Shown here one piece after another: positions 16,318 through 28,603 of a stretch of DNA of 28,603 nt. Location: IMG/VR virus record IMGVR_UViG_3300030419_003438, positions 1 to 28,603 of that record. The stretch is one strand, 5' to 3'. The notes beneath the pieces were generated by a model. The model was not told the DNA's origin and searched no databases. It saw only the letters and a list, made by a program, of their open reading frames with translations. Both the position numbers and the translations under genes were made by a program. This DNA is from a virus. Each line of letters begins with the position of its first letter. Within the stretch, counting starts at the first letter, position 1.

Positions 16318-17199
16318 ATGAAGTGGAACGAAGTTAATAAGCTAGATTGTATAGATGGTCTAAAAAATATAGAGTCCGATTCGGTAGATTGTATTATTGC
16401 TGACCCGCCCTATAATATTGGGAAAGACTTTGGTAATAATAAAACCAGACAAGCTCTTAAAGATTATGCTAATTGGTGCGAGGAATGGATTGTTGAGTGC
16501 GAACGCATCTTAGCACCATCCGGAACATTATATATTTATGGCTTTAGTGAGATCTTAGCTCATATATCTGTGCGTATGAATATTCCACATCGTTGGCTTG
16601 TATGGCATTATACAAACAAAACAGTCCCCAGCTTGCATTTTTGGCAAAGAAGCCATGAGTCTATTCTGTGTGCGTGGAAAAACAAGCCCGATAGAATCTT
16701 TAATAGAGATGATGTTAGAGAACCATACACTGAAGGCTTTGTAAAAGGCTACTCGGACGGCAAAAGAAAACGTCCAGCTGGAAAAGGCAGGTTTAATACC
16801 AGCGGCAAAGACAAAGAAACAACATATACTGTAAATAAAAAAGGAGCCTTACCAAGAGATGTCATCAAGATTCCGGCATTAGCTGGTGGGTCTGGTGCGT
16901 CAGAGAGGTACGTTTATTCTCCGAGCAATAACATGCTCTATACAAGCAAGCAAGCAAAGCAGAATAATATTGAAGATGGCATTAAGCACCCAACACAAAA
17001 ACCAATTAGACTAACTAAAAAGTTATTAGACGCCTGCATCGATCCTTCAGTGGATTCTAAAGTTGTCATACCTTTTGCAGGAACAGGCAGTGAATCTCGC
17101 GCCTGTGAGGAAAGAGGGGTGGAGTGGATCTCTTTTGATATTAACGATGATTATGTAAAAATGGCCAACCTATTGGTTAAAAATGGATTTCCAAAATAA
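16318..17199 (+). CDS. Beta-class DNA methyltransferase (N6-adenine or N4-cytosine)
   Basis: The 293-residue enzyme has the permuted order of beta-class amino-methyltransferases: catalytic motif IV DPPY (29-32) near the N-terminus and the SAM-binding FAGTG (253-257) near the C-terminus, with acidic Asp274 (SFDIN) for ribose contact. HPTQKP before motif I is also typical. The middle (about 135-200) is a basic, Lys/Gly-rich region and a likely target-recognition part. DPPY can go with either adenine or cytosine amino methylation. It starts four bases after the nuclease and probably protects the sites that the nuclease cuts. No strong ribosome site is seen (AGGG at 16301-16304), suggesting translation coupled to the nuclease gene. 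Confidence 0.88.
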   Translation: MKWNEVNKLDCIDGLKNIESDSVDCIIADPPYNIGKDFGNNKTRQALKDYANWCEEWIVECERILAPSGTLYIYGFSEILAHISVRMNIPHRWLVWHYTNKTVPSLHFWQRSHESILCAWKNKPDRIFNRDDVREPYTEGFVKGYSDGKRKRPAGKGRFNTSGKDKETTYTVNKKGALPRDVIKIPALAGGSGASERYVYSPSNNMLYTSKQAKQNNIEDGIKHPTQKPIRLTKKLLDACIDPSVDSKVVIPFAGTGSESRACEERGVEWISFDINDDYVKMANLLVKNGFPK

Positions 17200-25417: not shown

Positions 25418-25642
25418 ATGACAGAAAATATGCAAAAAGGAGACTTAGTATGGATCCCGCAACACGCGCGATTACACTGGCTTCGTGATGGAAGCGACAA
25501 AAGATATTTGATTACAGATGCTCCGCGTACAGCAGTTGTATGTGATCAAAATGATAGAAGTTATGATGTATTTTTAGATGGAAATATGTGGACCGTAAAT
25601 AAAACTGTTACTTATCACGTGGAGAGTGAATATGCTCGTTAA
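25418..25642 (+). CDS. Small beta-rich unknown protein
   Basis: The 74-residue product begins three bases after the GroEL stop. It is beta-strand rich (GDLVWIPQHARL, then AVVCDQNDRSYDVFLDGNMWTV), a pattern seen in small SH3-like barrels. No known family is recognised. Being co-transcribed with GroEL does not show a joint function. Confidence 0.7.
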   Translation: MTENMQKGDLVWIPQHARLHWLRDGSDKRYLITDAPRTAVVCDQNDRSYDVFLDGNMWTVNKTVTYHVESEYAR

Positions 25643-25922
25643 ACTTACAGAAGTGTGTAATAACGGTGCAGTTACCACCAATAAACTTTACTCATTACGC
25701 GATGTATTTGTTAACCCTGAGCACGTTGTTATGATTCGGGAGGAAAAGCGAATGAAAGAGCTTAACGAAAGAGGCAGACTTGCATCAGGTTTAGATCCGG
25801 CGCATCAGTTTTCCAAACTAACAATCAACAGAGGGCAAGCAGGAACTGAAATCGTTGTTGTGGGGTCACCAGAGGTAATTGAGACTACGTTAAAGAACAA
25901 TAGGCAACTACTAAGAGGGTAA
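25632..25922 (+). CDS. Small unknown protein, 96 residues
   Basis: ATG 25632 is preferred to the in-frame GTG at 25626, since GGAGAG (25621-25626) is well spaced for it. It overlaps the previous gene by 11 bases. The first strand (MLVKLTEV), a VNPEHVVMI segment, a variable charged loop and a final VVVGSPEVIETTL recall the FlbD-type beta fold, but this is a weak impression. Function is unknown. Confidence 0.7.
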   Translation: MLVKLTEVCNNGAVTTNKLYSLRDVFVNPEHVVMIREEKRMKELNERGRLASGLDPAHQFSKLTINRGQAGTEIVVVGSPEVIETTLKNNRQLLRG

Positions 25923-25923
25923 A

Positions 25924-26277
25924 GTGACACAAAGAATTAAATTACAGTATACGGTCACGACTGAGGAGTTAGAAGGAGAGGTCAAGAGACTGCTCAAATC
26001 TGCACTACATCAGCTTAAATCTACCGAGGATATTTTCAAAGATACTAATACAGTGTTTAGTCAACATGTGATAGAAGACATTGAAAAGATAAGGGATGTA
26101 ATGATAAGCGTTGATATGCGTTTAGATGATATAGCGAACATTGTATCGGGCTATCTCTCTTTTAAAAATTCCACACCAGAAACTTCGCCCGCCCAGCAGA
26201 TTGACGATCTTAAAGAACAGTTAACAAATTTCAAACAGCAATTTTCTACTGATCAAAAAAATGAAGTCGCCGATTAA
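25924..26277 (+). CDS. Small helical unknown protein
   Basis: It starts at GTG 25924, one base after the previous stop, with AGAGGG before it. The 117-residue product is charged and mainly helical (about 12-80), possibly a helical hairpin or coiled coil, with a flexible Pro/Ser linker around 83-90 and a C-terminal helix. No family is recognised. It overlaps the next gene by 17 bases. Confidence 0.7.
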   Translation: MTQRIKLQYTVTTEELEGEVKRLLKSALHQLKSTEDIFKDTNTVFSQHVIEDIEKIRDVMISVDMRLDDIANIVSGYLSFKNSTPETSPAQQIDDLKEQLTNFKQQFSTDQKNEVAD

Positions 26278-27034
26278 ACATGACGATGAAATTATAGCAT
26301 CTTTAAGTTATCTAAAGCAAATAATTCCTAAAGGTAGCGTGATTACAAGCTATTTGTTTTTCTCAGGCACTCTTGAGTTTAGTCTTTGCGAAGCAGGCAG
26401 ATTTGTGATGGCTAAAACAAACAAGTATGTCGTTGAAGAGTTTTGGAGTTGCATGCTTGAAGACGCAAGATTAATATACAATATTCTAAAAACAGACACG
26501 TTCTCAATATCATCAGAAGATATTTTTTATTTACTTCAAGAAACATGGATGGAATACCCGGATCCTTTTGTTCGCTCTGCTTTGTTTGTTTATCTGAATA
26601 ATTGCACAAAGAAGGGAAGCATATCTTCAGGTTCTCCAGAAACTTTTGAAATAAACCCCTTCTCTTTATCAAGTATAAAAAATTTTAAAGTTCCTAATTT
26701 TCACATAAGCTATGAAGATGTTGATTGTGATGATGTGCTTAATTCTGTATGCGAGCAATTAGAATCCGACTACGTGCTTTTACCAGTTGGCAAGTACAGC
26801 CTTAATCTTCTTGATGGAGCAACAAGTGTTGGTCATGAAACTACGCGCGTTAATCACAAAAATATCAAAAACATTTTTGAGAATACGAAAAATAAAAAAA
26901 TAATCTTAATTTACAAGTTTGATGAATTGTTAATTGAGGACTACAAAAACTATAACAAAATAATGATTGACAAACGTGGGAACCAAACTAATCAACAATC
27001 TAAATGTGAGGAAATAATTGTTACAAATTTCTAG
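26261..27034 (+). CDS. Degenerate D12-class (Dam-type) DNA methyltransferase-like protein, probably inactive
   Basis: The 257-residue protein follows the order of D12-class adenine methyltransferases. There is an N-terminal segment in the place of SAM motif I (30-41, YLFFSGTLEFSL instead of EPFxGxG), then Asn-Lys-Tyr and a helix. A helical middle with RSALFVYLNN (105-114) fits the Dam pattern, as does an FEINPF/FKVPNF stretch (129-147). DYVLLPVGKYS (170-180) lies where DPPY should be, and the end (HKNIKNIF, KKIILIYKFDE, KCEEIIVTNF) matches the Dam C-terminus. Both the SAM loop and the catalytic DPPY are lost, so methyl transfer is unlikely. It may bind DNA or GATC-like sites without methylating. 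This is a structural reading, not proof. Confidence 0.6.
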   Translation: MKSPIKHDDEIIASLSYLKQIIPKGSVITSYLFFSGTLEFSLCEAGRFVMAKTNKYVVEEFWSCMLEDARLIYNILKTDTFSISSEDIFYLLQETWMEYPDPFVRSALFVYLNNCTKKGSISSGSPETFEINPFSLSSIKNFKVPNFHISYEDVDCDDVLNSVCEQLESDYVLLPVGKYSLNLLDGATSVGHETTRVNHKNIKNIFENTKNKKIILIYKFDELLIEDYKNYNKIMIDKRGNQTNQQSKCEEIIVTNF

Positions 27035-27374
27035 TAAATTAATGTTGGCCATGAGTTTGTTCGCGCTTGGACAGACGCTAGCCTGGTTCCAAATCAACAG
27101 TCAATTTGTTTGGGAGTGGTGGAAGCAGCATCCAATTTTTGCCGTTGTTTTGTATGGATTACCGACAGGGCTTTGTTTCTTGTATGGTGTAAAATTTGCC
27201 TATGAAGAGATGGGGCAAGTGTGGGGTCCAAGGTTCTTAATCTTTAGCATGTCTTATTTGACTTTTCCCATACTTACGTGGCATTTTTTAGGTGAGAGCA
27301 TGTTCACCACAAAGACTATGATTTGTGTATTTTTGTCCATGATGATTGTGGGCGTTCAACTTTTTTGGAGATAA
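27018..27374 (+). CDS. Four-helix membrane protein, unknown
   Basis: The start is TTG 27018, overlapping the previous gene; GTGAGGAA (27006-27013) fits it. An ATG at 27042 is an alternative. The 118-residue protein has four likely membrane segments (about 5-24, 38-60, 70-91 and 98-117) joined by short loops, with an aromatic first loop (WFQINSQFVWEWW) and Tyr/Glu-rich second loop. Its size and four segments recall half of a small transporter of the EamA/DMT type, but no signature is clear. It could also be a holin-like or exclusion protein. Confidence 0.75.
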   Translation: MLQISSKLMLAMSLFALGQTLAWFQINSQFVWEWWKQHPIFAVVLYGLPTGLCFLYGVKFAYEEMGQVWGPRFLIFSMSYLTFPILTWHFLGESMFTTKTMICVFLSMMIVGVQLFWR

Positions 27375-27744: not shown

Positions 27745-28603
27745 ATGGGTTATTCAAGTGATAAATGGTTTAGATACCTTAAAGAAAATGTAAGATTAGA
27801 TGAGGGAGTCCGAGACATAGGACTCACCGAAATGATTGCAGACTTTATTGAGTCTGCGCTACACGATGCGCCGGAAAGCGCAAAGACGTGGATGGGGCAC
27901 AGGTGGAAGAAAACGCATCTCCACCAGTTTATGCCCCGCATACAATTGCAGCGCCTTCTCGTTGAGACGGAGGAACCGCTGCTGTCGGCTCTTAATTATT
28001 ACACAGGTGGTATGAAACGGGATGAGTTAGAGCCTCCCAAACTTGACGTTCAGTTTGAAAGCATCCTGAATGAAGGTGTAGAGTGGAGCGCCGAGAAAGC
28101 CGACCGCACCAAGCAAGTAATTAAGAACATTAGACGAACGATTAAAGATGAGGCTCTGGGCAAGTGGCCGAGAGCATTTAAGAGGGCTGCAAAAAACCTT
28201 AGCAAGCTGGGGCTCAAAAGCGACGTGGTTGAGTTTGTTCAAGAGGTACTATATAACACAGAAGATCGCGCGTGGAAAGGCTTTGAGACACGCTTCCGCG
28301 ATGTGTTCATATTCTTAAACATGCACCCAGACAACATCAGAATCCTCGATGAGTATAATCTTATGGTGGAAGCTGATAATAAAGCCGAAGCAGAACTAGC
28401 ACAAATAGACGATCCTGATCAAGTCCTCCACACGTTTGATGATGGCTCGTATTGGTACGATCTACAGAAAAGCACGTGCGACATTGAAGGCGAGCGAATG
28501 GGGCACTGCGGTGCTGCTCAAAGCGGAGGAACTCTTTACTCTCTTCGCAAGCCTGAAGGCAAGCGCGGCAAGTCTAAGTCGTATGTGACGATTGAGGCAG
28601 ACA
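27745..28603 (+). CDS. N-terminal part of a large unknown phage protein (runs off the window)
   Basis: ATG 27745, with TGAGG (27733-27737) upstream, opens a frame that is still open at the right edge, so at least 286 residues are visible. The N-terminal 190 residues are charged and helical. Near residues 235-275 a segment with SYWYDLQKSTCDIEGER, then MGHCG and a TLYSLR strand, recalls the Met-Gly-His-Cys block of PcfJ-like proteins, but only weakly. The His-Cys motif may be catalytic or metal-binding. Function is unknown. Being behind its own -10-like site suggests separate regulation. Confidence 0.7.
   Translation, partial: MGYSSDKWFRYLKENVRLDEGVRDIGLTEMIADFIESALHDAPESAKTWMGHRWKKTHLHQFMPRIQLQRLLVETEEPLLSALNYYTGGMKRDELEPPKLDVQFESILNEGVEWSAEKADRTKQVIKNIRRTIKDEALGKWPRAFKRAAKNLSKLGLKSDVVEFVQEVLYNTEDRAWKGFETRFRDVFIFLNMHPDNIRILDEYNLMVEADNKAEAELAQIDDPDQVLHTFDDGSYWYDLQKSTCDIEGERMGHCGAAQSGGTLYSLRKPEGKRGKSKSYVTIEAD

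Follow-up and report, generated by a model that had tools for sequence, protein, structure and literature searches.

The window analysed here, a 28.6 kb stretch that is the whole of an IMG/VR virus record, carries on its plus strand (26261 to 27034) a gene for a protein with the fold of the D12 methyltransferases that lacks their catalytic and cofactor motifs, referred to below as pseudo-D12 (P0001). The reading favoured for it, with good confidence, is that of a catalytically dead D12 homologue; more tentatively, it would act as a non-enzymatic module associated with o117, the product of the overlapping upstream gene. The assignment draws on the open frame, 44 further family sequences, an AlphaFold2 model and Foldseek comparisons.

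The gene and its conserved neighbourhood

The pseudo-D12 frame is open from an ATG start and encodes 257 aa. The upstream o117 gene (25924–26277, plus strand) shares 17 nt with its start, and the downstream gene abuts or slightly overlaps its end, with a start at TTG 27018 or, more likely, at ATG 27042. A preliminary description of this DNA had reported an intact frame overlapping its neighbours, as the open frame and the upstream overlap indeed indicate, and the peptides that it had named (RSALFVYLNN, KCEEIIVTNF, YLFFSGTLEFSL and LPVGKY) are all found in the translation of 26261–27034.

Relatives were gathered through the neighbouring GroEL and the protein that starts at 27745, with a frame search at the loci so obtained. 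The resulting family comprises 45 sequences (that of the window plus 44 further distinct full-length sequences from 44 loci), its members are 28–48% identical to P0001, and the carriers are marine phages of one group, most of them uncultured. Peptide-pattern searches with P0001 in viral and genome contigs yielded no relatives, conservation in the alignment was nowhere high enough for such patterns, and a scan of genome contigs using a distant family member yielded no further ones.

Gene order around pseudo-D12 is fixed as groEL-(o74)-o98-o117-pseudo-D12-o118, and all of these genes are found at 44/44 loci except o74 (29/44). The phage GroEL (23843–25414, plus strand; Pfam Cpn60, E = 1.6e-65) is the conserved anchor of the block: where GroEL is at least ~67% identical, pseudo-D12 is present in every locus that reaches far enough, and phages with GroEL below ~62% identity are without it. 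The fixed upstream neighbour o98 (25626–25922, plus strand) is a small, slowly evolving, phrog_4344-like phage protein (PHROG match in 6/20 members), and o117 itself is fast-evolving and predicted to be helical or coiled-coil. The fixed downstream neighbour o118 (27042–27374, plus strand) is strongly hydrophobic, evolves slowly (54–94% identity) and is a probable small membrane protein; a relative in Flavobacterium phage immuto (9195–9533) is annotated as an EmrE-like multidrug transporter and lies close to queuosine/7-deazaguanine genes. Beside the block in most loci there is also a conserved large protein, of which only the start (27745–28602) falls within the window and which has open frames of ~1,150 codons in relatives. 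Four loci of the wider group without pseudo-D12 (L058, L067, L071 and L074) encode directly after GroEL a protein of 88–93 aa, part of which looks helical and which has a hydrophobic segment at the C terminus.

Descent from D12 methyltransferases

By descent, pseudo-D12 is almost certainly a D12 (Dam-type) DNA-adenine methyltransferase. P0001 alone matches the NCBIfam dam model TIGR00571 (E = 1.5e-5, residues 11–116, below the curated cut-off of the model) and the PADLOC type II methyltransferase model PDLC03247 (MTase_II; E = 5e-5, residues 70–257). The top five matches in a PDB sequence search are all E. coli Dam, although weak (E ~0.01), and single-sequence searches of Pfam, in which D12 was not reached, and of PHROGs gave no real match. 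The family profile matches a D12 enzyme of known structure, 7m6b, along most of its length (E = 1.4e-9) and the active D12 enzymes of sister phages near full length (9.5e-20 to 1e-17 in the five best records, with weaker matches in two more). Because of the matches to TIGR00571, PDLC03247, the PDB, 7m6b and the sister-phage enzymes, the resemblance to D12 is more than chance, and since the profile matches co-resident active D12 near full length, the simplest reading is that pseudo-D12 would descend from an active D12 gene of a kind still present elsewhere in some of these phages. Scattered Pfam matches to RNA_helicase and T4_y05I_N were weak, concerned one to three members only and were dismissed. 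PADLOC matches to PD-Lambda-5_B were also seen for the family; the system is described as RM+Abi in a compact form that includes a predicted methyltransferase (PMC9519451), and D12 homology alone is the most likely source of the match.

Structure prediction gives the same answer. AlphaFold2 with the 45-sequence alignment reached a pLDDT of 92.2 and a pTM of 0.89 (pLDDT 35.5 from the single P0001 sequence), and the 21 best PDB chains in Foldseek are all D12 enzymes (Mcbe1, E. coli Dam, DpnM and T4 Dam; E 3e-11 to 4e-7, TM 0.64–0.70), non-D12 methyltransferases appearing only from ~1e-4 with TM ~0.4. Viral predicted structures agree with the D12 fold. The D12-class plan that the preliminary description had read along the protein, and for which it had proposed a structural comparison with Dam, is thereby supported at the level of both profile and fold. 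The order of structural elements is that of Mcbe1 (7m6b), E. coli Dam (2g1p, 4rtl), T4 Dam (1yf3) and DpnM (2dpm), but pseudo-D12 is only ~15% identical to these enzymes and is without their catalytic and cofactor motifs.

The active D12 of the same phage group (for example L096, L097 and L100–L102) read MKTPLRYPGGKSRAV...SPFFGGGSVEL...LDPPY and share with pseudo-D12 the start MK[ST]P[LI][KR], the register of the FxGxG region, an FW pair, the LNR.s..G core, a His and a Tyr after motif IV and the C-terminal [ED]-x-(I/V)-I motif, whereas motif X, FxGxG, the motif II Asp and DPPY are kept in these sister enzymes and not in pseudo-D12. The closest named-phage matches of one family member (L018) are the D12 of cyanophages S-SKS1, S-SCSM1 and S-SZBM1, which belong to the same D12 subclass and have active-type motifs (YPGGK, FIGGGS or FCGGSS, and DPPY) and a gene neighbourhood unlike that of pseudo-D12. 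In all three cyanophages the gene lies between two clamp-loader genes, and the S-SZBM1 product is annotated 'cytosine-specific' despite its D12 DPPY layout.

Loss and replacement of the catalytic motifs

Pseudo-D12 is very probably catalytically dead. Sixteen active D12 from sister phages and named records, co-aligned with the 45 family members, served as controls for the sites described here, all of which lie on the plus strand. At the motif X site (26276–26296, KHDDEII), active enzymes have [WY]-P/A-G-G-K, with GGK in 16/16, and both glycines are lost in 45/45 family members. At the motif I site (26348–26377, SYLFFSGTLE), the first glycine of FxGxG is replaced by Phe34 while Gly36 and Glu39 are kept; across the family this first glycine is absent in 45/45 (Phe in 27, Tyr in 18) and present in 16/16 active enzymes. 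The joint alignment pairs the active FFGGGSVEL with the family LFFSGTLEF, so that the last FxGxG glycine survives in 44/45, and the SAM loop that had been described as lost has in fact lost its first glycine and retained its last. Thr53 occupies the site of the cofactor-binding Asp of motif II (26417–26419; T in 44/45 and C in one, as against D in 16/16 active enzymes). At the motif IV site (26780–26797), LPVGKY replaces L-DPPY, as had been noted before, and the family consensus is P-x-G: the Asp, present in 16/16 controls, is absent in 45/45 and replaced by Pro (38), Arg (2), Ser (2), Ala, Leu or Asn. The search for equal losses in homologues, proposed earlier as a check, therefore finds them family-wide, in 45/45 members against 0/16 active D12.

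At motif X, motif I, the motif II acid and motif IV alike, pseudo-D12 departs from what defines a functional D12 methyltransferase. Usual SAM binding and methyl transfer would be impossible for such a protein, the former because an aromatic residue occupies the former glycine loop, and the alignment suggests that the SAM pocket is closed. It is conceivable that the pocket has been adapted to a different ligand or reaction by means of Glu39, Arg47, Thr53, Gln93, His199 and Tyr218, since several polar positions near the old active site vary little or not at all. Such a changed enzyme is nonetheless improbable: the glycine loop has given way to an aromatic residue, and seven of the eight invariant residues (all except Gln93) occur widely in the active D12 relatives too and may be scaffold.

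Selection and evolution

The replacements are themselves conserved: Phe/Tyr34 and Gln93 in 45/45, Thr53 in 44/45, Arg47 in 41/45, and Pro175 and Gly177 each in 38/45. Such replacements, together with the family-specific Gln93 and Arg47, form the pattern of a new function and not of decay. The 45 frames are intact, without stops and with lengths of 249–262 aa, and dN/dS is about 0.05–0.16 in close pairs, so that the gene is under strong purifying selection. In the tree all family members group in a single clade with 100/100 support, which a long branch separates from the active D12; the data do not fix the root. Median distances are 1.26 for pseudo-D12 and 1.59 for o117, compared with ~0.5 for the slow neighbours.

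A decaying pseudogene or a sequencing artefact might be suspected from the missing catalytic motifs and from a G+C content of 32.6%, the lowest among the genes measured around it, but its probability is close to nil, as the data refute decay through the intact frames, the low dN/dS, the conserved replacements and a synteny fixed across many independent metagenomes. The preliminary description had likewise held that the gene is not a decaying pseudogene. Conserved replacements, unbroken frames, purifying dN/dS values and a single separate clade therefore describe an old neofunctionalised pseudoenzyme, which has probably taken on a new, non-methylating job. The repurposing of a D12 protein suggested in that description is accordingly supported; the DNA-binding role that it attached to this is a separate claim.

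DNA binding

D12 enzymes are DNA-binding proteins, the fold and its helical subdomain are conserved in pseudo-D12, and a few basic positions are conserved too (Lys6, Arg105 and Lys213), so a protein that still grips phage or host DNA unmodified, masking sites or regulating, deserves consideration. The details of the interface make this rather unlikely. At the site of the target-recognition loop (26597–26698, plus strand), 34 residues stand where active enzymes have 37–40, a shortening by 3–6 residues in which the S-G is kept and the ERASYARF-type stretch conserved in active relatives is lost. Five basic residues of the active relatives (K11, K16, R81, K97 and K235) are not kept, the Tyr of DPPY that stacks on the base has disappeared, and the window protein has a pI of 5.1, against a family median of 6.7. 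Because of the short loop, the lost stretch and basic residues and these pI values, canonical Dam-like reading of DNA appears unlikely, and the earlier proposal that the protein reads DNA or masks sites is weakened as far as a Dam-like manner is meant; contact with DNA through another face is conceivable.

Other methyltransferases as partners

Eukaryotes offer well-known examples of dead methyltransferases: METTL14 and DNMT3L keep the fold without catalysis and are partners of an active homologue. By analogy, pseudo-D12 could be imagined to assist, without activity of its own, an active methyltransferase of the phage, be it the 17211 Dam, the 16318 enzyme or an active D12 encoded in the same genome, since the PF05869 Dam occurs in 7/7 long gene-bearing records tested and six gene-bearing records have a close active D12 paralogue matched by the family profile. 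Unlike METTL14 and DNMT3L, however, pseudo-D12 showed no coupling to an active homologue. Co-divergence with the 17211 Dam is absent (partial r -0.12), and the family of that Dam is kept in related phages without pseudo-D12; several long gene-bearing records have no PF01555 enzyme (16318 type); and the gene-bearing records of 146 and 187 kb, like most others, have no active D12. Active D12 of any kind is sporadic (10/37 records, some of which may be fragments) and lies at other genome positions, so that an active homologue that always co-occurs and co-evolves with the gene, as expected for a dead partner, is missing. The partnership with the methyltransferases at 16318 and 17211 put forward earlier thus has only a slight probability.

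In seven long records of the group, active D12 and the PF01555 N6/N4 methyltransferase seem to stand in for one another (only active D12 in G012, G016 and G024; only PF01555 in G015, G018, G019 and G020), with the PF05869 Dam always present; this exchange rests on small numbers, and G019 and G020 look like near-copies.

o117 as candidate partner

The association with o117 in the favoured reading comes from co-divergence, computed as a partial distance correlation with the overlap trimmed, GroEL distance corrected and 300 permutations. Pseudo-D12 and o117 gave a partial r of 0.37, with 0/300 permutations as high, and the same test found no co-divergence of pseudo-D12 with o118, o98, o74, the 17211 Dam, IMPDH, ClpP or the 27745 protein (all seven at or below 0). 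The signal could, though, stem from joint transfer of two overlapping genes and not from binding. Searches of o117 for named PHROG, PDB or phage relatives found none of note. The protein is independent of pseudo-D12, since it also occurs in related phages without it.

The C-terminal tail of o117 has a median length of 51 aa in phages with pseudo-D12 versus 23 aa in those without. A tail motif resembling L..kI..FK is present in 26/39 readable tails of gene-bearing phages versus 0/11 in the comparison group, which comprises 20 loci, two of them (L007 and L016) with a truncated pseudo-D12 copy, of which only the L016 tail is readable. The motif was chosen after the tails had been viewed, the loci are phylogenetically non-independent, and about one third of gene-bearing phages lack it (for example L029, L045, L049 and L052), so the tail association is suggestive only.

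That o117 is the partner is therefore put forward tentatively, at somewhat less than even odds. In the mechanism proposed, pseudo-D12 would act as a non-enzymatic protein-interaction module whose partner would be the overlapping upstream product, contacted probably through the o117 C-terminal tail, that is, a flexible linker and a short L..kI..FK helix, and the two proteins together would serve the phage cycle in some conserved role, structural or regulatory. It is possible, if doubtful, that the pair constitutes a two-protein module of o117 and a dead Dam-fold protein, fixed across the phage group, in which a former DNA methyltransferase has become a core, non-enzymatic part of the phage cycle.

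Significance

In the literature searched, no description of a conserved lineage of dead D12 in phages, of single origin, was found. About half of the family members match PHROG 'DNA methyltransferase' profiles and 37/45 match the PADLOC type II methyltransferase model; because such profiles match dead members, the family is an annotation trap, and automated annotation may credit these phages with methylation or defence functions that they probably lack. The pseudo-D12 family represents a traceable conversion of an enzyme to another role, and some of the genomes also encode active relatives with which it can be compared.
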